NCBI RefSeq assembly: GCF_020085105.1 | Contig: NC_058046.1 | Location: 2,015,175 to 2,079,174 of the forward strand | Reading direction: 5' to 3' | Origin: Siniperca chuatsi | Taxonomy: Eukaryota; Chordata; Actinopteri; Centrarchiformes; Sinipercidae | DNA length: 64,000 nt | In this document: piece after piece, positions 669 to 63,160 of the stretch | Layout: every line of letters starts with the position of its first letter | Numbering within the stretch: position 1 is the stretch's first letter | Notes under the pieces: generated by a model | What the model was told of the DNA's origin: nothing | The model's input: only the letters and a program-made list of their open reading frames with translations | Databases searched by the model: none | Program-made: the position numbers and the translations under genes

Positions 669-2280
669 TATGCCAAATACACAACCACCCAGGACACATC
701 CACTTACAACATCAACACACACTTCCACAGTCTTTCACACACACACACATACACACACACAGAGCAAGTGTTCATAGTTTTAGATGAATTGTGCTTTCTT
801 TCTTTTTCTTTTAATCTTATTATTACTCGACGCTTTGGCGATATTGTCTTTGTTACACTCGTGCCAATAAAGCGTACTGAAGTGAACTGAACTGACTGCA
901 AGCGCTCTGCCCATTCTACAGGATTCTGACTTTTGTGTGAAGTTGGGGTTAAAAAGTATCCCAGCATGCATTTCATGACAACTGCAGCACTGGTGGAGGA
1001 AACGAGCCTATAATGTTGCATCCCCCCACATGTGAAGGTGTGACTGATAAATGTGCTGTGTTGCTCTTCAGGCTCTGTGGGCCTCGGCCTCAGTTCCTCC
1101 TCCTCTCTCATGCTATTGCCTGGTGAATTTGGGGACCTGCAGCCAATCACAATCCCTACAGAAAGGCTGAGGAGAGAGTGTTTGTGTACTGCGAGCTGTT
1201 TTGTCAGGACCTAGTGAAGAGCTCTTTTGCATGTTGTTGTCAGGTTGGAAGTGATTGTGCTGTTCGATTTCAGTTCATCAATTATTTTAAGTTAGTTACC
1301 TGTTTTTTGTATCTTAACAACTTCCTTTAACTCCTTGCCAGGAAGCCCCGTAGAGGAGAGCTGCCATTTTAGTTACATTCCCTTTTCTCCTGTTTTTTGT
1401 GTTGACAGGGAGTCAGCTTTAGGATTGTAACTTTGCTTTGTGGGTAGTTTTGAAGTTTTAGATCTAAAACTGAAAAAGCTACTCAACCGGGAGGACCCCC
1501 ACCCGTTGCTCCAGCAGTCTGAGGAAGCAAACGCAAGAGGTCATGTTCCAAAGTTTAGTACAAAGTTCCACCTTTGTGTTAGGATCCCTCCACTGAAGCT
1601 CAGCAAGGAAACACTGTTTGCTGAAGCACAAAGAGGGAGCTTCGTACTAAAGACACCCACGTGTTTTGTCTATCTCAGACCGCTTCGGCTGAACTTGAGA
1701 ATGTAGTGTTATGGTGAACATGATGAAAGTAGACGTAGACAGGAAGTTTCTCTGGGCAGCAGAAACTTCCTGTGACGGGCCTGTCCTGAGAAATGCTCAG
1801 GACAATAATTACCAGTTTGTCCAGATGTTAGAACAGTGATTTGTGTTTCTAATAGATGTGTGACAAGATACTCTCAACTCAAAAGTAAACTTCTTCAGAA
1901 GATTGCAACCACATCCCAGGGCCTTCCTTACTGGTATCAGCTGTAAAGCTCAAACCAATGTCCGACTCACTGTGGGCCTCGTGCACGCAGGTAGCTCTTT
2001 AAGATGTGTCTTTTTTTGGAACAGTACATATTATTATATAGTACAAAGTCCAGGAAATTGTGCAACACCATACTCACAGTGCAAAATCTGCTGTTTGAGG
2101 TGCTCTTCTCACAGGACAGCAACGCTACACACACACGATGACCTTATAGACCATGATGCATTGCTGCAGATGAAACTACCCAACAGTATATAAAGCAGTT
2201 AAAATGAGCTCAACCTGAAACATCTGCAGCAGTAAAATGCAACACACACATGAATGCAGCAGGAATATGAATCCAGAAAC
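669..2280. other. Gene-free stretch, nothing recognised
   Basis: I see no exon with credible splice sites or recognisable protein similarity here. A short CA-rich patch (735-762) is the only simple repeat. The open frame at 1440-1706 has no ATG and no family resemblance. The stretch around 1320-1440 looks repeat-derived to me, but I cannot name it. Confidence 0.4.
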
Positions 2281-2284
2281 ATCA

Positions 2285-2455
2285 GATATAATAAAACACT
2301 GACAAGAGCGTTTTACTGCACAGTGAGCTGATAACACTTCTATACTTTTACTTCAGGGAGGTTTGACTGCAGGACTTTCACTTGTCGGGGAGTGTTTTCA
2401 CAGTGTTAGTACTTTGACTGCAGTAAAGGCTCTGAGTCCTTCCGCCACTGTCTCT
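2285..2455 (-). mobile_element. Partial hAT-like MITE ('CAGTGGTGG' family), inverted
   Basis: Read on the minus strand, it begins with a degraded CAGTGGCGGAAGGA end and carries the family's ACTGCAGTAAAAG / AAAGTCCTGCAG blocks. The same family is longer at 16675-17207 and 54022-54325, with fragments at 5690-5815 and 52410-52640. It is a non-autonomous DNA transposon relic without coding capacity. Confidence 0.55.
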
Positions 2456-2720
2456 GTCCCTCTTTGTATTTCCTTCTCCTTCACATCCTGCAGCTGGTGC
2501 TACAACTCTGCCCTCTGCTGCTGCAAATAAACCAAACTTTCAGGAAGAGCGCCTTCTTTTCCCAGAGAAACTGTATTTTATTCAAAAGAAGCGTGAGAAA
2601 AGAAAAAGCTCACCGATGTTAATATCTTATATTAATGACAAAATATATGACATCATTTTACGTTGCCCCCTGAACTCATTAGGCTACTCACGCCTTTTGT
2701 TCCAGGTGACCGGAAGAAGA

Positions 2721-2728
2721 CCCCCCCC

Positions 2729-2761
<33 letters not shown>
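2721..2761. repeat. Poly-C / (CA)n microsatellite
   Basis: About eleven C residues run directly into roughly fifteen CA units. Confidence 0.95.
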
Positions 2762-2763
<2 letters not shown>

Positions 2764-3090
2764 TTGACCGAGGCGCGCCTGCGGGAGACTTTCAGACACA
2801 GACAGCAGGTATGCAGACGGCTTTTATAACATATCAAATCTTGTTTTTATACTAACATTAAAGGTCTCCTCTGTGCCCCAGATGTTTGTAAAATGTATTC
2901 TGTAGTCCAGATTCCAGCCGGTACCGGTTTACCTGCAGCTTATGTTGGTTAGTTTTATAATAACGGGGCGTCGGAACCAGCACAGTCCTTTCTGCAGATC
3001 CCAAACTGTGAGAGTCCAGACGTCAGGTATGGAAAACATGGACTAGGTCTACGTGTTTGAGTTCACATTATCGCGCTTTTTGTTACAAGT

Positions 3091-3102
3091 GAAAGTGAAA
3101 CT
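3091..3102 (+). promoter_or_regulatory. Interferon-stimulated response element (ISRE) core
   Basis: GAAAGTGAAACT fits the IRF/ISGF3 consensus GAAANNGAAACT exactly. It lies 1.56 kb upstream of the ATG of the V-set gene at 4665, whose first coding exon begins with a splice acceptor (after 4654). The promoter should therefore lie further upstream, which makes this a plausible promoter-proximal site. The minus-strand paralogue has an equally perfect core at 14147-14158. Binding and inducibility are inference. Confidence 0.5.
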
Positions 3103-3388
3103 AAACTCTCCAGCAGTGACGCACACACAGTGCGCACCTTTAGTGTGTGACTGCTGTAAAATAAGGTGCCGCGCCACGATCCGTGATTACGGTTTAAATC
3201 GTCTGCATACATGAGCGAAATGTAGCTCAACGACCAGCAGGGGGCGCAATGGAGCCGCTCTGCTGTCCCACAGGTGGAGGTGAAGCCCTCTGGCCTGCAG
3301 CTCTACCTTCATCTGTGTGTTTGTGTTGTGTCCTTTATGTCCTCTGCTGTATGTGTGAAAACAGGACAAATGGTTTCAGTCATATGTG

Positions 3389-3702
3389 CACTCAGTGACC
3401 GGTTTATTAGGTACACCTGGACAAAAGTAATGCAGTCTAATACAGCAGTCCTGCAGTCCGTCCTCCTTCATGAAGGTTATAATGTTCAGTTTTGGTTTCT
3501 TGTTGAAACTGGCAATAATCTCATTCTAATATTTTGTCCACCCCATTTAAATCAACAAGGATGGACAGAATATTAGACAAACTCCATGACGTTGAATCAA
3601 CCTCTCTAAAACAGTTTGAACACGAAGTTAACATGATAACCTTCAAGAAGGAGGATTCAGAGTGACTGCATTAGGTTGAGCCTGATGTATAAAACTGAGT
3701 GT
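3389..3702 (+). mobile_element. MITE with long imperfect terminal inverted repeats, copy A
   Basis: The 5' end (CACTCAGTGACCGGTTTATT, then AGGTACACC) and the 3' end (closing in AAACTGAGTG) are imperfect inverted repeats. TAATGCAGTC, TCCTCCTTC and GAAGGTTAT on the left reappear complemented in order on the right. A close copy sits at 22865-23222 in sncaip intron 2. 'CACTGGCCACTTTATTAGGTAC' ends are a well-known teleost DNA-transposon signature, and a further end occurs at 27050-27077. No transposase is encoded. Confidence 0.7.
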
Positions 3703-3857
3703 TTCTCCACAGCTGTAACCTACAGCTGCCGAACTGCTTCAGGTTACAATCTGTCTGTACTTAGAGCAACGTAACTGCTACTGCAATGAACTAATATCTA
3801 AATATAACTGCTTTTTACAATTATCTCTCACTCTTTGTTTTTTTGTCCAGTACTCAG

Positions 3858-3936
3858 TACTCTGTCACGTGGCCTCTGAAGAGCATCCCAGAGTTGTCCA
3901 GGAGGAGTGATGGCCAGGAGATCGAGGAGAGACCAG
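3858..3936 (+). pseudogene. Stray copy of sncaip exon 3 with intact splice sites
   Basis: Exon 3 of sncaip (23393-23465, 73 nt) is copied here as 79 nt. The two extra triplets are GG/C after CACGT and AGAT-like after CCAGG, so the frame is unchanged. It reads YSVTWPLKSIPELS then RRSDGQEIEERP, against YSVTSLKSIPELS then RRSDGQAEERP in the real exon. The donor CAG|GTAAC and two possible acceptors (after 3850 and after 3857, created by a TACTCAG repeat) remain. There is no neighbouring sncaip exon, so it cannot make synphilin. It could be spliced into the 5' leader of the V-set gene, whose coding exon 1 follows an acceptor at 4654. Called a pseudo-exon because no transcript can be seen. Confidence 0.8.
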
Positions 3937-4054
3937 GTAACTACAAAGGATTATAGTTATTATTATACTAAGGATAGCTTAGTTAGAATTTTTACTCTGT
4001 TTCTTCTGATTGTTCTGTTTGTGAAGTTGCTCCATGAAGATTATAATGTATAAT

Positions 4055-4212
4055 GTTGATTTAACTTTATGATCATTTTGGAGAATGTAGTTTGTGCTGC
4101 TGTTGAGTCATATTTTTTTCATTTCTATCAATAAGGGGAAGACTAAATAACAAACACTGTACAACAACAACACAAACTACAGCCTCCAAAATGATCGTAC
4201 AGTTGAATCAAC
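4055..4212. mobile_element. Palindromic MITE
   Basis: The arms 4055-4105 and 4164-4212 are imperfect inverted repeats: GTTGATT, ATGATCATTTTGGAG and GTAGTTTGTG on the left are complemented on the right. One arm of the same family sits at 23063-23095 inside the sncaip copy of the other MITE but is missing at the matching place in copy A. The stretch just right of it (4230-4430) is another common teleost repeat, ending in CGTTAGTTGCAGCCCTAC. Confidence 0.65.
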
Positions 4213-4664
4213 ACCTCGAAAACAGAAACGGTCTTTGGGTGTTTTGACTGTTGGTTGGACAAAAGTGGACATTTAGAAACATCACTGGGGCTCTGGGAAA
4301 TTGTGACGGGCATTTTTTACTGTTTCATGACATTTTACAGACATTGACAATGAATCGATTAATCAAGAAAATAATTGGCACATTAATAGATAAAAACTAA
4401 ATAACAATCGTTAGTTGCAGCCCTACTTATTACTTATATTTGGGGTCAAATAGACGGCAGAGAAGTGGAACTCTGTCAGACCGTGTGAACAAACTATTAT
4501 AAAAGTGTGATGAGACGAATATAAATGTACGTATTATGATTTGGGAGAGGTAGTGCTGTGTAAGAAGTACGGTTAATACAAATCACAGATTTGAAGCTTA
4601 ATGAAATAAATGTATTTAACCTAAACTTTTCGTGCTGCTTCGTTTCTGTTTTCAGAACTCCAGG

Positions 4665-7600
4665 ATGCTTCCTGTGAAGGACAGACAGTTTGGTGCCTTC
4701 ACTGTCCTGGTTTTCCACACTGTTGTCTTCCTCGCCCTGATACACTCATGTAGAGGTAAATTACACACCAACAGTCTAGTTTATGTTAACATGTAAAGTT
4801 TAGTCTATAGATGTTGTACTGGAAATCCAGTTTGTTCTCCGAATGACACCATATGGCTGTTTGAAACGAGTGCATTCTGCCTTTGCTGCAGAAATTACAA
4901 TCCAAACACTTTCTCTTCAGGTCAGTCTGAGATTATTGGTCCATCTCAGCCAGTAGTGGCAACAGTTGGTGAGGACATCATTTTGCCGGGTTACCTGGAC
5001 CCTGTCATGAATGCTTTTGACATGACTGTGGAGTGGGCGAGACCTGACCTGGACCCCAGATTTGTCCTCGTGTGGCGTGACGGCGTGGAACTAGAGAGCA
5101 AAAAACATCCGTCCTACGAGGGACGAACATCACTGTTCACTGATGAACTGAAGCACGGAAACATTTCACTGAAACTCTCCAAAGTGAAAATATCTGATGA
5201 GGGAAGATACAGATGCTTCATTCCAACACTGTCTGGAGCCTCTACTGTTCAGCTTGTTGTAGGTACGTGGGCACATTTAGTGATCTTTAATCTTAAGATT
5301 TAAGGATAATAAATCTTGTTTGATAATGTTATTAATAGGAAATGTTGGAACTGAAAGTAAACCAAAAACAATTAAGGTTACAGTATGACATCCGAACAGG
5401 GCAGTGCCTTATCAGAGTCTGTGTAACTTTCCTGTCACTAATTTTATCCTGGTCAGAGTTACAGATTTCAGTCGGAGTTCGGTTCATTGTGACAGTGAAG
5501 GTGCTCATGGACACACTTTATAAATTTGTTATGTTGTTAATGTGTGTTCTGTCGGCTACATCGGCAACCAAATCTAGGTTTATTACAGAAACTGTGCTTG
5601 TGCAGTTGCTAGCTCTTCAACTCCACCTTTCCTACCACCCACAGTGTGTCCGACTCTGAACTTTACAACAAAGCAGTGCCCCGCACTGATTATACTTACA
5701 TACTTTTACTCAAGTAATATTTTCAATGCAGGACTTTTACTTGTAGTGGAGTATTTTCACAGTGTGGTATTAGTATTTTTACTGCAGTGAAGGTTCTGAA
5801 TGCTTCCTCCACCACAGCCATGTGGGTAATAGTGAAACAAGCCCCAAAGCTCCAGTAGACACACACATCCATATTCCAGGTGAATATTGTTTATAAGCTA
5901 ATGATGTGATCACTTAGCTACAGAGTTAATATGAACATGCTGTTCTGTGTTTTATCATTTCTTCATAGTACCCAGTACTCCCGGTACTCCCGGTACTCCT
6001 GATACCACTGGTACTCCTGGTACTCCTGGTACCCCTGGTACCCCTGGTACTCCTGGTAGTCTGTATTTTATTATGGGCTCAACTATTGGCTTTGCTGCTT
6101 TGGTGTCTATTCCTGCTGTTGTCTTTGTTGTGTGGAAATGGAGAAACAAGAAATTCAGTAAGTCACACATTTTTTGACTGATTTTTGAGTTTAATTTCAT
6201 CTGGTGCTATTAAAGTTTAGTTTTGGTGGAAATGTACTCTCATATCATCAATGAAACTGTCAGAAGATCATTTTATTTTGTGTTATTTTGAAATTGAGTT
6301 GATATTCTGTAATACTTAAAATTTCACCAGCTGATGTTTTCAGTAGTGTCCTTTTTCAAATCATTTTCAGTCTTGTAATTTTTTAAGTTTCTTCAGTTTC
6401 ATGCCATTACAAAACACTAACAGAACATTTCATTACAAACTTCACCAGTTTCTCCTGCTTCTCTATTCACACAGAAAACAAGAGGAGGAGCCACGAGGAT
6501 GGACCTGAACAGACCGAGGAAGAAAAGACGGTCACATCTAAGAGTGATAACACAGGATTCCACGCCGTGATGGAAGGAGAAGGAGAAGGTGTACCGCTTA
6601 TGGCAGGAAGACAGGAAGAGACTACTGTGGACAATGGAGGAGAAGAGAAGATCGAATCTCAAAGTGAACGTAAAGTTCCCCAGTTTGTGGCTGAAAGAGA
6701 AACACACCAACATCAGCTCGGGACAAAACCAGAGCCAATAAGGGACATGGACAGGGCAGTAGGAGAGCGGGGAATGAAATCTGTAACTGATGAAAAAGTA
6801 TCTCTTATTCCAGCAGAAGGAGAAACACACCTAAAGCAGGACATGATAGGAAGACAAGTACAAAATGATGGGGACAAAGGTGAAGGAGAGCAGACGATGA
6901 AACCAGTAAAGGGAGATTCAGGACTTCCAATGGTACTGGTTGGAGAAGGACAAAAAGAGCAGCTACACAATCTCCACACTGATCAGGAAGTACACAAACA
7001 GCAAGAGCCAATGAATGATGTGGACAAGAAAGAGGCAAACATTAAGAAAAAGAACAAGCAGGAGCGAGCGAAAAAAGGAGGTTCTGGATCGACGGGACAG
7101 AAGAAGCAACGGGAGAACCAGAGAGAACAAATGCAACTGGAGGCAGAACATGAGGATAAGAAAGGAAAAGATCGAGATGGAAAAAAGAGTAACATGACGA
7201 GAACAACAGAAAGGAAAGCAGAGAACCAAAAGCAGCAAAGTAAAGAGAAATTGGAAGAGACAAAAGACGAGAAAGTGGAACATGAGAGGGAGCTTCAAAC
7301 AGAGACGCAAGAAAAAATAAAGAGGGATAAAGAGAGGACAGAGCTCAAAACACAGAAAGGAAATGGCAACCAGCATGTTTTAGATGCCAGCAAACAAGAA
7401 ACAGAACTGGAGGATAAGAAAGGAAAAGATCGGGAGGGAAACCAGAGTAACATTACCAGAATGACGGAAAGGAAAGCAGAGAACCAAAAGCAGCAGATCA
7501 ATGAGAAATTGGAGGAGGCAGAGGAAAAGAGGGATGGGAGAGAGAATAAGTTTTCATCAGACCTCAAAACACATCCAGAAAGAGCAGAGAGAAAAAACCA

Positions 7601-7856
7601 AGAGCCCCAAGAAGAGAACGAGCTCCAGGCAGAGAAGCAACAGGAAAAATCTCTGCGAAATCAGGAAGAAACCAAAGAGCAGCCAGAGCGATCCACCAAC
7701 AGGGTAAAGGAAGAGTGTAAAGGAAGACAGGAAGAGACTACTGTGGACAATGGAGGAGAAGAGAAGATCGAATCTCAAAGTGAAGTAAAGTTCCCCAGTT
7801 TGTGGCTGAAAGAGAAACACACCAACATCAGCTCGGGACAAAACCAGAGCCAATAA
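4665..7856 (+). CDS. Butyrophilin/B7-like membrane protein: single V-set domain, Pro-Gly-Thr stalk, Lys/Glu-rich tail
   Basis: Coding exons are 4665-4755, 4921-5262, 5969-6157 and 6475-7856, all joined in phase 1 (667 codons plus stop). Exon 1 encodes a signal peptide (MLPVKDRQFG, then a hydrophobic run). Residues 31-144 form a V-set domain with the DEGRYRC F-strand motif. The B-strand cysteine is replaced by glycine (ILPGYLDP, paralogue ILPCHSLP), so the usual disulfide cannot form. A stalk of about nine GTP triplets and one membrane helix (about residues 175-199, then WKWRNKK) follow. The tail of some 460 residues is nearly all K, E, Q, R and D and contains internal duplications. There is no C-type Ig or B30.2 domain. 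Family members act at the cell surface as immune co-regulators; the function here is unknown. A frame change in the second tail repeat ends the protein early. An intron hidden in the tail cannot be excluded. Confidence 0.75.
5690..5815 (-). mobile_element. Fragment of hAT-like MITE ('CAGTGGTGG' family) in intron 2 of the V-set gene
   Basis: Read on the minus strand, it contains the family's blocks of GTAAAAGTCCTGC-type sequence and ends near the degraded GTGGTGGAGGAAG end. It lies in the V-set gene's intron between 5263 and 5968, where a paralogue would carry its C-type Ig exon. I see no remnant of that exon there. Confidence 0.55.
5981..6058 (+). repeat. 9-bp coding minisatellite (Gly-Thr-Pro stalk)
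   Basis: Tandem GGTACTCCT-type units encode repeated Gly-Thr-Pro, interrupted once by Asp-Thr-Thr. It lies in the exon for stalk and membrane helix. Such arrays change length easily, so stalk length may vary between individuals. Thr/Pro-rich stalks are often O-glycosylated; a collagen-like Gly-X-Y reading is also possible. Confidence 0.8.
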
Positions 7857-8100
7857 GGGACATGGACAGGGCAGAAGGAGAGAAATCTGTAACTGATGAA
7901 AAAGTATCTCTTATTACAGCAGAAGGAGAAACACACCTAAAGCAGGACATGATAGGAAGACAAGTACAAAATGATGGGGACAAAGGTGAAGGAGAGCAGA
8001 CGATGAAACCAGTAAAGGGAGATTCAGGACTTCCAATGGTACTGGTTGGAGAAGGACAAAAAGAGCAGCTACACAATCTCCACACTGATCAGGAAGTACA
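6605..8100 (+). repeat. Tandem duplication of 390 bp within the tail region (units 6605-6994 and 7721-8100)
   Basis: The two units are nearly identical at an offset of 1116 bases. The second lacks one base after TCAAAGTGAA (near 7784) and nine bases in the GGAGAGCGGGGAATG region. The interval between them holds a second pair of related units, near 7150-7260 and 7410-7515 (AGGATAAGAAAGGAAAAGAT and following). A third array of about 42-base units encoding EGEANxEQExKMxV lies at 8327-8466. Confidence 0.9.
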
Positions 8101-8557
8101 GAAAGAAGAAGAGACACAAAAGCAAGGACAGCTGCAGGCAGTGCAACAACCGAACAGAAGACCGCAAACTCAAACAAATGTCAAGAGAGGAGAAAAAGGA
8201 CAACTACAAGAGAAAGAGCTCCATGTGGATCAACAACAGGCAGTCAGGAAGAGGAGGCGTCAGGAAGAAGGCAAAGAGGAGACACAGAAGACTAAAAAGC
8301 CAAAAGAACAAAATAAAGGAGAAACTAACATAGAGCAAGATGTAAAGATGGAGGTTGAAGGAGAAGCTAACACAGAGCAAGAAAAAAAGATGGATGTTGA
8401 AGGAGAAGCTAACAGAGAGCAAGAAGAAAAGATGGAGGTTGAAGCTAACAGAGAGCAAGAAGTAAAAGATGAACCTCAAAAATGTGATATGAATTCACAA
8501 CTGGGTCAAGCACACGTGTGTCAGGAAAACCAACAGGTGGAGCCGATGGACTCTTAG
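7857..8557 (+). pseudogene. Open continuation of the Lys/Glu-rich tail in another frame
   Basis: Because the second unit of the tandem duplication lacks one base, the main frame stops at 7856. The frame that continues the repeat's original reading stays open to a TAG at 8555-8557. It encodes the same kind of residues (QKEEETQKQGQ, then the EGEANxEQE array, ending QQVEPMDS). Some 700 open bases with matching composition show that this was coding until recently. It may still be so in other alleles, through an unrecognised intron, or if the missing base is a sequence error. Confidence 0.6.
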
Positions 8558-10890: not shown

Positions 10891-13800
10891 TTAGAACAAC
10901 AACAGCAACAACAACAACGATGAAGATCCAACAACAGTTGAGAGACCACCAGTCAGGACCAAGTTGCAATTAGCTGAAATAAGAGAACACAAAACAGCAT
11001 TGTATTTAAATAGCAATATACCTCAGCTGTATACAGTTAACAAAGTGAGCATGAAATGAATTGGTAAGCCATGTTTACCTGGAATGCGGATCTGTGTCTC
11101 TCTGGTCTGCTTGATTTTCTGCTGTTGGATTCTACAAGTGAAGATGTTGCTGTTGCTCTTCTTCACAGTGAGCCTGCTGCTGACAGCATAGAGGCCATCA
11201 GGACCACAGGGTGTCTCTGAAGATCCAGCAGGGAGGAGGTTTTCCTCACCGTCCAGCCAAAACACCTCAGGCTTTGGATACCAGCCTTTAGACTCACACT
11301 GTAAAACCACTCCAGAGTTGGTTCTTTCAACAGCCACTGTGACACGTGAGGGGACAGCACCTGGTGATAAGAGAGATTAGAAACTCCAGTGACTGTCTTG
11401 AACTGAAAATTCAACATTTAGGCTCAGTAAATATTACCTGCCTGTATTAACATTATATTCTGATTACTGTACCATCAATATTAGTGGGTTAGTGGAATAT
11501 AATCAGAATCAGAATCAGAATGATGCCTCTGTATGAGTTGTTCATGGGACTTTTACATCAAATATACATTTGATATTGTTCTATTTTGGTTTTTATCTAT
11601 AAATACTTTCTTGAGACTTGAGGGTCCAAATGAAATACCAGGACTGAATCAGATCCGTAATCTCAGCTGTGAAAGTCACAGTTAATGGTGGTGGCGTGGG
11701 GTCAGTCAACTGCACAGATCAATGCCAAATGTAACTCTTCACTTTATGTTCTTTCCTCTTCTAACGACCACCGTTCTTCTGCCCATTAAGAATACATTCA
11801 TCCCTTTAGTTGAGCTGTTGCGGGGCTCTTAGTTCTGAGCACAGTGCATTTCAAAATGGTTGCATGTAAATAACCAAACAAACAAATGCATGCACTAGAA
11901 ACATATACATCCACTTACCAACAACAAGCTCAACAACAGAGATTAGACCCTTTGTTGAAAGTGAGCAGCTGTATGTTCCCTCATCACAAGTTGTCACGTT
12001 GGAGAGTTTCATTGAAAAGTCTCCATACTTCAGCCGGTCACCGAACAGTGATGTTCTATTGTAGAATGGATGTTTTTGATAATGATATCCCACATTAAAA
12101 GGCCACTCAAGGAGTTTAGTGCCTGCTGCCCACCACTCCAATTTTGTGCCACGAGCAGGTAGGCTGTGACAAGGCAAGATGACGTCATCGCGAACTGTTG
12201 CCACTATTGTCTCAGATGAAGGAATAGATGGAGACTGAACTGTGAAGAAACAAATGTGTTTTTTAATTCCTGCTGTGTGAAAAGTCTTTTCAGCACTACA
12301 AGACTGTGTCCACCATCTTTGTTTTATGGTTCAAGATCTCCAAAATCCTATAACATATTCTAATATATTGTAAAAAAAAAAACTCATGTGCTCGTGGCTG
12401 TGGGACAACAAACAAACAGACAGAGCCATTAAAAGCACAATATAGACTAAAGTGACAGGGTCTTAAGGTTAACACCTGCATTATTACATAATCTGGACTC
12501 CCAGTCTTGTAGAGGGCCGCCAAGTTAAAATCTAGTTTTAAAGCCTTCTTAATTTCACAACATCTTGTGTTTACGTGGCATATAGTCCTAAATATATTTG
12601 AGCTTAATCAAGTTACCACAAATGAATTAATAATAACTAAAAAATGTTTACACAATGCCCAGAGAGTGACAGAAACGAGGGTGCCAGCAGGGACCCACAG
12701 CTTAATTCTGGCCCAGGGCCCCTATAGGGTTAATCTGGTTAATATGGTTATGTTTATTCACTCACAGCACTTGGTAAAGATTAGGGAAAGATTATGGTCC
12801 TGGTTAAATACTGAAATAGTCAACAGTGACTTGAAGCACAAGACAGGACATGTTTCATTTTTTCAAGTGTTGTTGCAGCCTAAACTGAACAGGAAGCAAA
12901 CCAGGGTCTCTGGTGTCGTAGTCCTGTGTGGCAGAAGGACGACGCCAGTAAACATATTTGCAGAGGAGAAATACATTTCCTTTAAATTGTATTTGGCAAA
13001 ACAAATTAGTACTATAGAAATGTAAATCCTAAGAGGCCAGCCATATGGCTGGGTGGTGAGAATTTCTCCTATAGTTATTAATGTGGTGTCACTTGATATG
13101 ACTTATTGTCTCAAAAGGCTCAACCGGTGGACTTTGTTTCCTTGCAACAAACAGAGCAGAGCTGCCTTATCAGGAAATGAAGCAAAGCAACAGACATACA
13201 GAGCTCTAACCTGCGCCTGTTTATTTCCTCGCACCGGTTTATGCATTTACACTGACAGACCACCAAAGGTTGATATTTAAAGATGATATTTTACTGTATA
13301 ACCACACACATAGACACAAACAAGGTATTTCTGTCACAAGCGTCTCCTGATTGAACTGGAAAACCGCTGTGTTATGTAGAAATTTTGGTAGAAGTCAAAA
13401 TGGATTATTCAAGGATTTTTTAAACAAGTCAAACTTTTCAGTTATTTGTATGAATATATCTGGTACTGAAATGATAAAAGAATATACTGATTGTCAGAAT
13501 TGACTCTGGGTTCTTATTAAACCGGTCAGGGTCAAAGTGCAGCGAGGATCAGAACTGGGCCCAGCACCAACACTGTGGTTGTGTGTGTTGAAGCGTGGCT
13601 GTAAAGGTTTAGTAGCAGTAACAGTAGCAAACACAACAAAATAAGAGCACAAGAATAAATAAGAAGCAGCTGTGAAGACATATGAACCATTCAACGTAGT
13701 TTTTACTCAGTGAGGCGCAGTGTTGCAGTAGCGTGGGTGTAGTGAAACAGATTACACTGACTTCAAATGTTATCACAACTCTCTGCTGTGGATGGTTTAC

Positions 13801-14146: not shown

Positions 14147-14158
14147 GAAAGAGAAACT
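14147..14158 (-). promoter_or_regulatory. ISRE core upstream of the V-C Ig gene
   Basis: GAAAGAGAAACT on the plus strand (AGTTTCTCTTTC on the coding strand) fits the IRF/ISGF3 consensus exactly. It lies 188 bases upstream of the ATG at 13959, in the region expected for the promoter or 5' leader. Together with the core at 3091-3102 it suggests that both paralogues respond to interferon. Confidence 0.55.
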
Positions 14159-22453: not shown

Positions 22454-25400
22454 ATGGAGGCTCCTGAATACCTGGACCTGGATGAGATCGACTTCTCAGA
22501 TGATTCAGTGGTCAGTATGATATAAACAAGCTAACAGCTGCCTACTGCTACACAACCGCTAACTACACCTACTTAACTGATAGAGTCCACTAAAAATGTC
22601 TCCATCTGCCCCAAGCTTGATCCGATGGATCAGGGTGGGAGTATCCTTACTTTAGAGTCTCTAGGAGGCCTAACTACGCACTTGCAACAGCCTCTCCTCT
22701 ACCTATAGCCACCACCTCTGTAGGAGCATACAGCTGCCAACAGTAGTGTGTAACAAACAACAGCTTAGGAGCTGCATATCTAACAAACAGCAACAACAAC
22801 CTAAACCTGGCCGAACAATCCAAGTAGGGTGCATCCTGCCTGCCACATACAATGCAGATGCTATTCAGTGTCCAGTTTATTAGGTACACCTAGATAAAAC
22901 TAATGCAGTCTAATACAACAGTCCTGCAATAAACCCCTACCTGCATGAAGGTTATAATGTTCAGTTTTGGTCAGAAGTGGCAATCCTAAAAGTTTGTCCA
23001 CCCCATTTAAATCAACAAGGATAGACTGAATATTAGAAAAACTTCTCCTTTATAACACAATATGATTCAACAGCAGCACAAACTACAGCCTCCAAAAAAA
23101 AAAACATGACGTCGGATCAACCTCTCTAAAACAGTTTGAACACGAAGTTAACATGATAACCTTCAAGAAGGAGGATTCAGAGTGACTGCATTAGGTTCAG
23201 CCTGATGTATAAAACTGAGTGTTTCTCCACAGCTGTAACCTACAGCTGCCGAACTGCTTCAGGTTACAATCTGTCTGTACTTAGAGCAACGTAACTGCTA
23301 CTGCAATGAACTAATATCTAAATATAACTGCTTTGCACAGCTGCTGAGCTGCTGTGCACAATTATCTCTCACTCTTTGTTTTTGTCCCGCAGTACTCTGT
23401 CACGTCTCTGAAGAGCATCCCAGAGTTGTCCAGGAGGAGTGATGGCCAGGCCGAGGAGAGACCAGGTAACTACGAATTATAAAAGGATAGCTTAGTTAGA
23501 ATTTTTACTCTGCTTTTGAACTAAAACTGTGTAGCAGTTTCTTCTGATTGTTCTGTTTGTGTAATTGTTTTAAAATTAATACCAGACCTCAACAATACAG
23601 AACATGTTGTCCTTTATACATCTGAACTTCAACAAGGCCTAGTTAAATCTCTGTGAAACTAAACTACGTTATTTAAACTCAGCTGTTCTCTTATCACCAC
23701 CTCCTGCAGCTCCAGCCATCAACTGGAGTCGTGGCGTTTCCTCCCACAGCGGCGGGGGAATCAAACCCACGGGGCTCGCTGAGGTCCACAGCAAGTTCCG
23801 GCCGGTGAAGAGGGTCTCCCCTCTCAAACACCAACCAGAGACCACCGACTCTGACTCTGATGGTAAAGTCCAGGGGCTGGGGCTGGGGCTGGGGGAGCCG
23901 GCGGAGGCCAGTAAGGACGACTCCAGCTCTGACAAACCGACCCATGCCTCCACCTCCTCTGACGGTACAGAAGGGAAGGCGAAGGCCCTGGGCGGCGGCG
24001 TTGGTGTTGGTGGAGGGAACAACCCCCAGGCTCTGTTCGGGGAGCTGGAGCACTACGATCTGGACATGGACGAGATCCTGGACGTGCCTTATATCAAGTC
24101 CAGTCAGCAGATGTCCACGCTGCCTCGCGTCCCCCACGACAAGCGTTCGGTGACAGGGAGCAACCTGGGCGGAGGCACCCTGGAGAGGAGCCGGGGAGGA
24201 GGGCTGAAGAGCTCCGCTTTACCCCACAGCGAGCCTCTGAGCTTGGGCAGTGGCAGCTCACAGACTCAGGTACACACTGATCAACTTCAAAACAAGTTCT
24301 TTAAATATTTTAGAATATTATAAAGGGTACGGTCTAGGCTCTATAGGAAAAGTGCAATGAGATAACTTCTGTTATATATTGGTGCTATATAAATACATAA
24401 TATTGAATTGAATATTTTTCATTTGTGAATCCATCGTTTTTATTTTCTATTTAACTCTTTTTAAGTGTATTTAAATGTCTTTTTAGATTGTCCTATGTTA
24501 CTTTTAAGTTTTATGTAAAGCACTTTGAATTGCCTTGTTGTTGAAATGTGCTATACAACTAAACTTGCCTTGCCTTCAGTCCACAGAGGGTGACCTCGTA
24601 GGAAAACATTATGTGGAAGTCATTGCGCATGGATTACTAAACTAAGCACACAGTTTAGTAAACTGTAAAGGGAATTTTTTAGCAACACTTGTGGAATATA
24701 CACCTGGCCTTCAGAGGAAAAAAGCATGAAGTATTTAACATTTAATTGTCATACCAGCTAAATGACGCACAGGCAAATTGGGGATAAGATGCATAATAGA
24801 AGTTTCACGACTACTTATTCTTACTAGTCGTGAGGTTTTGCAAAATAGTCGTTCATTAGTCAACTATTGTTGACTATATTAAAATGTATTTTACACCACA
24901 CCTGAATCAACGTAACAGAAACTATGTAAATATAAACAAGCATTGATGTTTTACACATTAACTGCTGTAAATGTGGTGATGCTGGGTAAAATCATCCACA
25001 AGTAGTCGACTACTGTCCACAGCACTGACTCTAGTGGTTTTAGTAGTCGAATAGATGTGCACATACTGTGATATTCTGTATGCTGCACTTAAAGGACTGA
25101 CAGTATTTGAGCATACTGCCGAGGTAATATCCAGCTAAAAGTGAGCTAAATTGGTAAAATTGTCTATAGAAGAAATATAAATTTAAATATTAGTCTAAAC
25201 CATTGCAATTAAAACATTTTTACAATTACCTTTGTCTAAAATATATTGGAAATTGTAAAGTATATTTACAGTATGTTCATATATTCGTGCAGCCATTTAG
25301 TTTCCTTTCACTGTAAATTTTGCCAGTTAGGTTTTCCAGTTTAGTTAAAGGTTCCCTGTTGAGTTTTAGACCTCCAGCAGCGCTATGGAGCTGTATTTCT

Positions 25401-47896: not shown

Positions 47897-50800
47897 TCAC
47901 TTCCCCGGGCAGAAGGGACAGGAGTTGTTCTTGCTGGACTGCAGCCACACTCTGATGCAGTCTTTGTGGATGGTGTGGGAGCAGCTCAGTGGGTGGCGGC
48001 TCTCTGGATCCACGTGGTTCTGGCACATCAGGCAGAGTTTACGGGCCCCGACAGCCTGACCTCCACCTGCTGCTGCTCTCTGCGAGGGAGGTGCGGGCCT
48101 CTGGATGGGGCCCGGGGGTGTGGGCCGGCTGATGGGCCCCGGGGCCACCCTCTCGTTCTGTACCAGCTTGAAGCCGACCTGCTCGATGACCTCCTCCATG
48201 GACATGCCAGCCAGCGTACCGCGGGAGCTCTTCACCTGCTGGAGCAGCGACGTCAGCTGAGCCCTGTTGCACTGTGGGAACCGAGCCCCGAGCTTCTCCA
48301 GGACCTTGTCTAGTTTGCCGGTGGGGGCGGCGGTGGCAGCGACAGCAGTGGCAGGGGGAGGCGGGGAAGGACCTACAGGGTGGACGGGCTGAACAGGAGG
48401 GGACGGAGAGAGACTGAGAGGGGGAGTCATCACCCTCATTGGAGCTTGGATGTGGGGCTGTAACTGGTGTGGAGGTTGGTGTTGGGGTGGGAGGGGGGGT
48501 TGGAACTGGTGTTGGAGTGGTGGGTGGTGGTAGCGGTGACGGTACTGGGGATTGTGAGGAGGCGGGTACTGTTGCTGGTAATAGTGCGGGTGTCTCTGGG
48601 GAGGGAGGGGTCGGTTCACTGGGTTTGGAGGAGGAGGGGGCATGAACTGAGGGCCGACCAGCGGCTGCATCACCTGACTGAATCTCAGGTCAGCCTGTGG
48701 GAGAAAAGAAGTGTCGCTAAAGTTAAATAAGAGAAACCCCTTGAACCCTGATATACCGTTAAAAAAGCTTCAACATTATACAAGAAATATTTTGATAATC
48801 AATTAATTGTTCAAGTCATTTTTAAAGCAAACATTCTCTGGTTCCAGCGTCTAAAATGTGAAGATTTGCTGCTTCTCTCTTTTTTAAATCTGTTGTAAAT
48901 GTGTTAAATCTGATGTGTATCTTTAGACTGTTTTCCAGAAAAGCCACAAAAGAAAACGTGATTTAATGCACATTTCCATCCACTGCTGTATGCAAATATT
49001 AGTAGTTTAGCGCATCGAGATAAACCGCGGGTGGAGTTAATTCTCCAGTCGGCGCCATTAAACCACTGCAGAAGAAGACATAACGAGATGATGTCATTAA
49101 AAGAGCTCCAGTCAAAGCTCAAACATTGGGAAACCATGTGGGAAACATGGCATTTTTGTTAGTTTCATGTATTAATGTGAAGAAGGTTACGGCCTCCTCA
49201 TCGCTCCACACACATCTGAGGTTTTCAGCTCTTCACTTGAAGCGTCGGTGGAGTTTCAGTCACGTTTCAGTCACGTCAGTAAGTCTGTTTCCATTTGGTT
49301 TTATTCACACATCAACTTTTACACCTCAGACAAGGCGAAAATCATTTTTGCGATATTTAGACATGTTTTTAAAATTTCCGGTGAATGCAAACACACTTGG
49401 TGCCGCGTTGGGCTCTGGGAGCGTTTTTCAGTATTATCTCACACTGCCTTAAATATTATATTGTGATATTGATATGTATTGTGATACAGTCTTTATATTT
49501 TATGTTTATGATAACCAGACAGTCTGTTTTGGCTAAGTGTAGTGAATTAAGTACCTGAAAAATAAAGGCACTGCATACACAGATGCAAAAATCCAGTAAT
49601 TTATTTAATGTTGCTATAAAACAGTCCTGCTCACTGATTTGCACACAATGGTCTAATATGCCCTCGTAGTTCCTTGTTGTTCTTATGGAGGTTTAATGAA
49701 CATATTACGAGTCACTTTGAACAAACGCGTCTGCCACATTAATGTAACAATCAGAGATATTGAAGAGAAAGCTACCTCAGTATAAACAATACGGCAAAAT
49801 CAACATATACGCCAACCCTGTGTACAACACTGTTACATAATATAGTATATCTGTATCTGCTCACTCCAGTGATTCAGTAAAGTGGTCTTACCGTGGGGAC
49901 GTGCGGCAGAGACGGCACGTTGATCCTGGGGAGGGACTCTAACTCTCGACCCTGCTGGAGCTGCTGCAGGACCTCCTGGAAACGGCTCTGGAGCTCGGCC
50001 TGGTTCCTCCGGACCGCGCCTTCCTTTTTCTCCCACTTCTGCCTCTCAAAAGGGTACTGCTGCGGAAACTCCACCCTGAGAGCGTTCAGGTACTGTCCCA
50101 CCTGGGACAGGTAACCACAAGATCAACGTCAGAGCGGCTGCAGGGCTTCATGCTCCATGTCTGGCTTTTCTGGACAGTTATTCGTGTCTATCATTGGCTT
50201 TATATCACATGATTTTGGCATAAAAACAAAATTTACAGTCAGTGAATATCAGATCAGAGCTTTTACTGTTGATCACAACGTTCTGATGTCTACTTCTCTC
50301 AGCCAGGCCTCGATGCGAGCCATGGCGACGTCTCTCTGCTTTTCCACGGCAGCGATCTCATCCTGTAAGGTCAGCAGCTCGGCCTCCTGCGCCTCCTTCC
50401 TCACTCGCTCCATCTCCTGCCTCAGCTCGTCCAGCTCCTCCTGCCACCTCCTCTGCTCCTCGCTCTGCTCCTCTGTGAGAGCCGTCAGCTTCCTCTCGTT
50501 CTCCTCCAGCTCCTTGGCCAGCCTGGAGAGAGGAGGGAAGACGAAGGAGAGTGGGAGTTCTCATGTTTCTCAGTTCTAACCATCTAAGTGTTTGAACATG
50601 TATTGTTGTTTTTAGATTTTACAGAATTATCTTTCTGTAATTGTCCTCTCTTTTAGTGTAAAGTGCATTGAGACACTGCGATTTTACACTCCTAATTAAC
50701 TTATTTACTCACTAATAGAGTTGCATCGATTAGGCAATTAATCAATCATTTGCCCAACAGCTATTTTGATAACTGACTAATCGTTTTGAGTCATTTGTTT

Positions 50801-61895: not shown

Positions 61896-63160
61896 GCTCA
61901 CACACACATACACACTAGGGCTGGGCAAATGTGTATATACTGTATAGATATCGATATTTTTATATATATATATACAGTAATTCTTTTAAACTTAAACAAT
62001 TACTGTGATAAACGAGGTAAAAAGACATTGGTGGTTTATGTTGATGCTTCAGTGACGTGACGTTTGGCACAAAACAGATGAGCAAACTATATCAGAACAT
62101 TAAAAGAGACTAAAAGTCTTCTCCTCAACAAGGTCAAATGTGTAGATACTCACGTGACGTCACGTGTCTACAGCAGCACACGGAAAGGCGAAGCAGGAAA
62201 AGCTGTACGGGACTGTACAGCACGTGTGTCATTTTCTACTTGCTTCTCATTCTTGTCACCTTTTGTAAATACGTTGGGTTTTCACTTTCTGAATCTTCCA
62301 CTGGGGAACGTTAAGCTTAAGTAATTCTTTAAGCTCGGCAGAAGTACTGCCTTAGTTTACGTCATGACATGTGGAATCCCACAGCCTTTGTGTTTGTCCT
62401 GTCACAGAGGCCACAGAGGAGGTTTCGTTGGACAGTCCAGGGAGAGACGTCCTGCTGTCTGACGGCCCGTCACCCGCCATCACCCCCATCACCCCTCCCA
62501 CCTCCGTCATCACCCCTCGCATTGGCTTCGCCCACGACGACATGTTCACACACTCCTCCTTCGACGAGGTGACTGCACTCACACACTCACGCCGGCATGT
62601 TTGCAAAGAAACACTTAGATTTGTTTTATTGTGAATCAAAGTTCGCCCAGATTTGGAGACATTTTGCTGAAACCAGAATTACTTGTATCATTACAATGTA
62701 TTATTATACTGTACATACTTATCATCAACTGGTTAATCCACTTTGTACTTTACACTTAATTTTATACTCATTTTATAATAAAGTATACCCACTTGGTACT
62801 TAATTTATCTGACCTGTACCCCATTATGCTGCTTGTTAAGCTGCTCTGAAGCGTGACAGTTAGCTGTTTTAACTTCCAAGAGTTTGTTTTAGATTTTGCT
62901 AATCAATAATTTAATGATCTGACTCTGATACTTTCACAATTACATTCTTCATATACATATAAAGCGAGAAAGAGAAAAAGTGTATTTTTCTTCATTTAAG
63001 ATTTCTTGTTGTGTAGCTGCTGTCATTATATACTGACTGAACTTTGCTGTAGGAAAACATGCAGCGACCCTGTTTTGTTCGTGTTTTCCGCAGATTGAAG
63101 AGGAGGAGGGCGGCGATTCATTCGACATGCACATATCAGTGTCTGACCCTGAGAAAGTTG
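55392..63160 (+). CDS. snx2: Sorting nexin 2, first five coding exons (gene runs off the right edge)
   Basis: Coding exons are 55392-55490, 58685-58720 (a 36-nt mini-exon), 61746-61857, 62408-62568 and 63094-63160, phases 0-0-1-0-1, giving 158 residues so far. The start MADTARDPPPEHTNFHELEDGEDLF parallels human SNX2 (FEDLEDGEDLF). The blocks EPEPASLPAEDIS-NSNGPK, EDLFAEATEEVSLDSPGRD, SPAITPITPPTSVITPRI and VSDPEKVG match SNX2 rather than SNX1. This is the acidic N-terminal region before the PX domain; PX and BAR domains lie outside the window. SNX2 pairs with SNX5/6 on endosomes, binding PI3P and tubulating membrane for retromer-linked retrieval. The 36-nt exon reads RKSSSAPAVNGA, has a strong acceptor and donor, and could be optional. 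Exons 2 and 3 are each bracketed by complementary GT and CA arrays. Confidence 0.93.
55930..56001. repeat. (GT)35 microsatellite in snx2 intron 1
   Basis: This GT array has one TT interruption near 55980. A CT-repeat patch follows at 56155-56174. Confidence 0.95.
57747..57944. repeat. Opposed (CA)22 and (GT)29 arrays
   Basis: A CA array at 57747-57791 and a GT array at 57887-57944 face each other across 95 bases. In RNA or single-stranded DNA they could fold into a long hairpin. No exon lies between them. Confidence 0.95.
58522..58560. repeat. (GT)19 upstream of snx2 mini-exon
   Basis: The array ends 124 bases before the 36-nt exon at 58685. The complementary CA array follows the exon at 58756-58828. 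Confidence 0.95.
58756..58828. repeat. (CA)36 downstream of snx2 mini-exon
   Basis: An uninterrupted CA array starts 36 bases after the mini-exon donor. It is complementary to the GT array at 58522-58560. Confidence 0.97.
59555..59590. repeat. (GT)18 microsatellite
   Basis: A simple GT array in snx2 intron 2, not next to an exon. Confidence 0.97.
61717..61741. repeat. (GT)12 at the acceptor of snx2 exon 3
   Basis: The array ends four bases before the exon and replaces the usual pyrimidine tract (TGTGTGTACAG). The complementary (CA)14 lies at 61865-61893, seven bases after the exon. Confidence 0.95.
61865..61893. repeat. (CA)14 after the donor of snx2 exon 3
   Basis: The array follows the donor CAG|GTACAAA almost at once and is complementary to the GT array at 61717-61741 on the other side of the exon. 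Confidence 0.95.
62680..62815 (+). mobile_element. LINE/SINE 3' tail fragment, relative of 463-668
   Basis: CATACTTATCATCAACTGG, TGTACTTTACACTTAATTTT and CACTTGGTACTTAATTTATC match the tail at the left edge of the window. It lies in snx2 intron 4. Confidence 0.55.

Follow-up and report, generated by a model that had tools for sequence, protein, structure and literature searches.

Several ways in which break repair or transposition can place a piece of gene sequence elsewhere in a genome have been described. Repair-mediated duplications, as presented by Pace et al. (2009; PMC2671141), are short insertions of at least 50 bp at transposable elements with a donor on the same chromosome and no poly(A), and they may contain an exon together with introns. 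Their breakpoints are marked by microhomology, filler, or deletion. The account given there includes 824 human cases with a donor within 5 kb and 80 zebrafish cases, the proximal ones measuring up to 619 bp, as well as 58 same-chromosome cases beyond 5 kb, which are called less certain, the donors at <5 kb forming the confident class. In two of the human duplications a complete exon is present along with some intron to its left and right, and a fusion transcript appears to arise from one of the two (PMC2671141). Class 2 templated sequence insertions (TSIPs; PMC5110952) are patches of distant genomic sequence at a break, with no target-site duplication or poly(A), for which the review favours RNA templates. 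Break-induced replication, during which frameshifts rise 25- to 2,800-fold in yeast according to the report in PMC3039667, and MMBIR (PMC2621351) share one-ended invasion, frameshift-prone copying, and a non-homologous exit. Pack-TYPE and transduplication elements, as characterized in PMC8903248 and PMC2572040, carry a gene fragment beside a terminal repeat.

The window analysed here is a stretch of 64 kb from Siniperca chuatsi, and its gene content is what one would expect of a teleost locus. It contains sncaip on the + strand, with exon 2 at 22454, exon 3 at 23393–23465, and the remainder of the gene extending onward toward 33488. The first residues of exon 2 agree at 17/17 positions with the human sequence, and the large + strand frame ending at 33488 is presumably the end of sncaip. 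A gene on the − strand downstream of sncaip (47897–48769) matched a RING finger and a TTC3-type helical domain and is probably rnf214-like. A 142-base dispersed repeat, 79.6% identical between its copies at 453–576 and 62678–62818, lies near both window ends.

sncaip exon 3, with flanking intron, is duplicated ahead of a + strand butyrophilin-like gene: the sequence of 23105–23561 is repeated at 3585–4023 in the same orientation, 19,520 bases away from start to start (Table 1). When the window was compared with itself by BLAST, 3585–3944 aligned to 23105–23473 (90.0% identity, 462 bits, E = 8e-132), 3999–4023 aligned to 23537–23561 with 25/25 bases identical, and 3392–3583 aligned to 22865–23043 (81.4%, E = 1e-35). 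In 3585–4022, 388 of the 438 bases fell into nine exact colinear blocks of at least 8 bases, the last of which extends one base further, to 4023, in the BLAST alignment. The top score of 200 shuffles of 3596–4022 against the window was 34.4 bits, and the copied segment matched one other place in the 64 kb. An earlier note on this DNA had read 3389–4022 as a colinear repeat of the sncaip exon 3 region, and the alignments, exact blocks, and shuffles bear out that the duplication is real.

Table 1. Features of the sncaip exon 3 copy, its donor, and the surrounding genes (window positions)
Feature	Position	Strand	Details
ISRE-type motif GAAAGTGAAACT, upstream of the copy	3091..3102	+	pattern GAAANNGAAACT
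Left part of the resident MITE, ahead of the start exon of the butyrophilin-like gene; diverged relative to the MITE in sncaip	3393..3583	+	alignment; inverted-repeat arms
Inferred switch from resident MITE to sncaip-derived sequence	3584..3596	+	alignment and letters at 3593/3595
Young copy: end of sncaip intron 2, exon 3, start of intron 3	3585..4023	+	BLAST, alignment, exact blocks
TACTCAG stretch giving two possible acceptors	3851..3857	+	AG 3849–3850 and AG 3856–3857
Copy of exon 3 (79 nt), open in the frame of sncaip, YSVTWPLKSIPELSRRSDGQEIEERP	3858..3936	+	donor GTAACT at 3937
ATG in the copied exon, context GTGATGG	3910..3912	+	in frame with ATG 4665 if 3936 is spliced to 4656
Second, truncated MITE piece just right of the copy (limits approximate)	4030..4228	+	52-base inverted-repeat arms, 87% complementary
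Candidate start-codon/signal-peptide exon, butyrophilin-like gene	4656..4755	+	acceptor AG 4654–4655, ATG 4665, donor 4756
Ig V-set exon, butyrophilin-like gene	4921..5262	+	V-set E = 3.3e-7
sncaip exon 2 coding start, MEAPEYLDLDEIDFSDD	22454..22504	+	
MITE in sncaip intron 2 (right end approximate)	22865..23222	+	
Donor segment of the copy	23105..23561	+	BLAST, alignment, exact blocks
Inverted repeat in sncaip, 8-bp stem, nearly all missing from the copy	23334..23358	+	
Native sncaip exon 3, 73 nt, YSVTSLKSIPELSRRSDGQAEERP	23393..23465	+	
Inverted repeat, 5-bp stem, surrounding 25 bases that the copy lacks	23510..23537	+	

The gene behind the copy is called butyrophilin-like because its V-set exon resembles that of a second upstream Ig gene on the − strand (approximately 11000–12330; 76% identity over 173 bases), which combines a V-set exon with a butyrophilin-type C domain (C2-set_3, E = 2.5e-17). 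The pattern GAAANNGAAACT matched twice in the window, where 0.30 matches were expected, and at least two matches occurred in 4 of 100 shuffles. The second match, GAAAGAGAAACT at 14147–14158, lies about 1.8 kb past the V-set exon of the − strand gene, on its upstream side. The copy sits, as had been noted before, between an ISRE-type motif (3091–3102) and an Ig V-set gene with a candidate start exon (4656–4755). Judging from the acceptor before that start exon, the copy probably lies in the leader intron of the gene. Donor sites were scored over 2000–4640 with a simple matrix; the copied donor was the highest of the three scoring >4 (4.56, against 4.37 and 4.45 for those at 2809 and 3027), and the first exon of the butyrophilin-like gene is uncertain because no donor >4 lies between the motif and the copied exon. 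Behind the V-set exon, long K/E/Q-rich open frames contain a 394-base direct repeat (6605–6998 and 7721–8104, 96.7% identical), and 42-base tandem units occur in the same K/E/Q-rich region at 8316–8471; these frames gave no Pfam match.

The similarity between the two places is divided into two levels of divergence. Against the sncaip MITE, the left part of the resident MITE (3393–3583) has 153 identical and 23 substituted bases (23/176 aligned) and 3 gaps, whereas the right part (3585–3702) has 3/118 substitutions (Fisher p = 0.0014) and the whole of 3585–4022 has 14/410 (Fisher p = 5e-5), 11 of the 14 standing beside gaps. The 107 MITE bases at 3596–3702 hold one mismatch, and the probability of zero or one at a divergence of 13% is 6e-6. 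From 3596 on, there are one isolated mismatch and six indel events. The single mismatch previously counted in 3596–3813 was found at 3678. The accompanying view of 3389–4022 as one young copy is right from 3596 on, but the region is not one young block, because the MITE part at 3393–3583 is far more diverged than the rest. The switch in identity falls at 3584–3596, within the MITE. The copy agrees with the second MITE piece (TTGAATC, 4203–4209) at positions 3593 and 3595, where sncaip reads TCGGATC (23112–23118). CATGACG at 3585–3591 is common to the copy and sncaip and is absent from the other MITE piece, so the switch could also lie at 3584/3585, with the letters at 3593 and 3595 explained as later changes in sncaip.

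The copied exon is flanked by intron on both sides and retains a donor and acceptors. The TACTCAG repeat gives it two acceptors, in agreement with the earlier note, and the 20 bases ahead of them contain 17 and 15 pyrimidines, compared with 16 at the sncaip acceptor. The donor GTAACT is identical in the native and copied exons. Splicing from the second acceptor gives an exon of 79 nt rather than 73 nt and keeps the sncaip frame, whereas the first acceptor gives 86 nt and shifts the frame, so that of an exon described as having an intact frame and donor, the donor is unchanged and the frame is kept from the second acceptor only. Similarly, the exon had been said to differ by two insertions of exactly three bases; the first is indeed a plain +3 insertion, but the second is a replacement of CC by AGATC (net +3), which changes the codon GCC to GAG ATC. 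Constraint is only weakly indicated by two net +3 changes, for which a naive estimate gives a chance of about 1 in 9. Selection on the exon triplets was considered and set aside, two changes being too few to support it, and no sign of selection on the copy was seen in its sequence.

The copy is rich in indels and poor in substitutions. Three isolated substitutions (3593, 3595, and 3678) stand against six indel or complex events in 3585–4022, and of the four events outside the exon, two make the copy shorter than sncaip by net 21 and 25 bases and two make it longer by net 6 and 16. At least six indels among nine events have a probability of 6e-4 if the indel share is 15%, 3e-3 if it is 20%, and 0.025 if it is 30%, the usual share in this reckoning being taken from general background. 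Both stretches that the copy lacks fall on inverted repeats in sncaip, which were sought after the data had been seen: stems of at least 8 bp occurred in 0.2% of 20,000 random 24-base intervals, and stems of at least 5 bp in 5.9% of 20,000 random 25-base intervals, so that the 5-bp stem is unremarkable alone. Short direct repeats lie within three of the four inserted bits (TACTC, AGGAG, and AAGGA), with none at GGC. Indels placed at inverted and direct repeats fit what slipping, single-strand-templated synthesis would leave, and a copy with many indels and few substitutions is compatible with error-prone synthesis. The polarity of the indels is taken from the human protein for the exon only, and their direction is uncertain outside it. 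The sequence at 23334–23358 is an imperfect palindrome, TGCACAGC...GCTGTGCA, in sncaip intron 2 close to the exon 3 acceptor, and sncaip may just as well have gained it later.

At the left, similarity stops at the end of the MITE in both copies, whereas at the right edge (4023/4024) there is no clear homology between the two places. The copy of about 439 bp has MITE sequence on both sides, in two pieces that may or may not be halves of a single element; because the right piece starts earlier in the element than the left piece ends, the pre-insertion site was not a simple split MITE. Neither edge carries poly(A), and the left flank shares no word of at least 4 bases with the right edge (4017–4030) that could be a target-site duplication. 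The left terminal repeats matched the right end of the sncaip MITE, where shuffles did as well in 0 of 500 trials for the sncaip repeat and 4 of 500 for that of the other copy, and were unmatched in 3940–4260, where 494 and 430 of 500 shuffles, respectively, did as well. In searches for relatives of the MITE, two patterns had no match in a collection of viral contigs and one had none in a collection of genome contigs, and two 15-base terminal-repeat strings were found in no paper of the searched literature. Rfam at gathering thresholds gave 0 matches and ARAGORN 0 genes. The earlier reading of a DNA-level event is consistent with the intron on both sides and with edges that lack poly(A) and a target-site duplication of at least 4 bases. 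Its term segmental duplication names the wrong class, because about 430 bases were copied, starting in a MITE family present at both sites and ending without homology, which fits templated break repair. Segmental duplications usually measure at least 1 kb at an identity of at least 90%, a length of which the copy falls short.

We consider it probable that this is a repair-mediated duplication primed by MITE homology, which carried approximately 430 bases from sncaip into the region upstream of the butyrophilin-like gene. Break repair by strand invasion from MITE to MITE, followed by end joining, is favoured because homology is present at one end and absent at the other, the copying was rich in errors, and the tract is short. 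A double-strand break or stalled fork would have arisen in the MITE upstream of the butyrophilin-like start exon, and its 3' end would have annealed to the related MITE that lies 19.5 kb off, in the same orientation, within sncaip intron 2. A low-fidelity polymerase would then have copied the remainder of the MITE, the end of intron 2, exon 3, and the start of intron 3, after which the new strand would have come free and been attached to the opposite end of the break at about 4023 with no need for long homology. The copy with its limits, the identity switch within the MITE, and the lack of homology on the right are observed; the break, the strand invasion, and the error-prone synthesis are what we infer from these traces. 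Against this reading stand the CATGACG common to the copy and sncaip, the dependence of the indel excess on the assumed share, the order of the two MITE pieces, and the 19.5 kb to the donor.

The copy shares with the duplications described by Pace et al. (PMC2671141) its short length, its same-chromosome donor, and the absence of retrotransposition marks (unspliced intron on both sides and no poly(A)), it may like them have been inserted at a transposable element, and zebrafish cases are among those listed. Unlike the proximal class, its donor is not within 5 kb but 19,520 bases away, farther than in most known cases; its left junction lies in a shared MITE, where that account describes 2–9 nt of microhomology; and it is rich in indels. 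It resembles the class 2 TSIPs of PMC5110952 in the features listed above but is unspliced DNA derived from the same region, and homology is present at one of its ends. On the proposed reading, it also has the one-ended invasion, error-prone copying, and non-homologous exit described for break-induced replication and MMBIR (PMC3039667, PMC2621351), although the tract is only about 430 bp and therefore nearer to synthesis-dependent strand annealing. Human transposable-element rearrangements involve elements approximately 80% alike, as stated in PMC9675761, and the left MITE part is 81% identical here. Most likely, the sncaip exon copy is an unusual example of an already known kind of repair accident. 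A limited literature search, judged by title, found no earlier report of a sncaip exon copy near a butyrophilin gene.

Other origins were weighed against the same observations. The whole block 3392–4023 might be an older duplication, part of which, from about 3596, was later reset by gene conversion from sncaip; the colinear order of MITE, intron, and exon and the left edge at the MITE end in both copies would agree with this. Such a history is unlikely, however, since it requires two events, must spare the left part of the MITE exactly at a point inside the element, and leaves indels that would have to survive the conversion or postdate it. That the assembler took a false path through the MITE repeat and so put sncaip sequence before the butyrophilin-like gene is quite unlikely: MITE sequence does lie on both sides of the copy, where assemblers err, but the copy is not verbatim, and its six indel events of net 3–25 bases, two of them in the exon, count against an artefact because a false path or homopolymer noise would not give them unless another allele was used. 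We regard as very unlikely a capture in the Pack-TYPE or transduplication style, in which the MITE would have used its own left terminal repeat together with a spurious right end past exon 3 and so taken the exon along. The left edge of similarity at the MITE terminus speaks for it and resembles the fragment beside a terminal repeat seen in those elements (PMC8903248, PMC2572040); against it are the uneven divergence across the unit and, in place of two terminal inverted repeats and a target-site duplication of at least 4 bases, no second terminal repeat in 3940–4260 and no such duplication. Two further candidates were rejected. A tandem exon duplication in sncaip intron 2, of the kind that gives mutually exclusive exons, conflicts with sncaip exon 2 at 22454, which lies downstream of the copy; the copy may still lie in sncaip intron 1 if the gene has a far-upstream noncoding exon 1. 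A processed retrocopy conflicts with the intron on both sides of the copied exon.

Whatever the origin of the copy, it might function as an exon if it were spliced into the leader of the butyrophilin-like gene, where it would provide a new start codon. Besides the intact donor and the acceptors, the ATG at 3910 has G at −3 and +4 and opens a frame through 4656, and the predicted 3936–4656 join would read MARRSRRDQNSR ahead of the normal start MLPVKDRQFG. We nonetheless hold functional exonisation to be highly improbable and no more than a testable possibility, because a frame match is expected by chance about 1 time in 3 and the first exon is unsettled, no donor >4 lying between the ISRE-type motif and the copied exon. 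More improbable still is the full chain, in which MITE-primed repair would have brought a complete sncaip exon, ready for splicing, to the leader of the butyrophilin-like gene that has the ISRE-type motif, and splicing of that exon would add a new start codon and with it a basic N-terminal extension of 12 residues; if true, a single young allele, perhaps still polymorphic, would show exon shuffling in progress. Most likely, the copied exon is a young and neutral insertion, perhaps polymorphic, with weak splicing at most, and of the outcomes that the earlier note had offered, a neutral relic is the likeliest.

As a repair-mediated duplication, the locus shows cleanly, on a small scale, the way in which an entire exon, splice sites included, could reach a nearby gene through break repair between dispersed repeats, and its uneven divergence shows where the copying probably began. 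The many indels and few substitutions of the copy may be a natural record of the inaccuracy of repair synthesis. If the copied exon is spliced, it would offer a testable early stage of exon shuffling.
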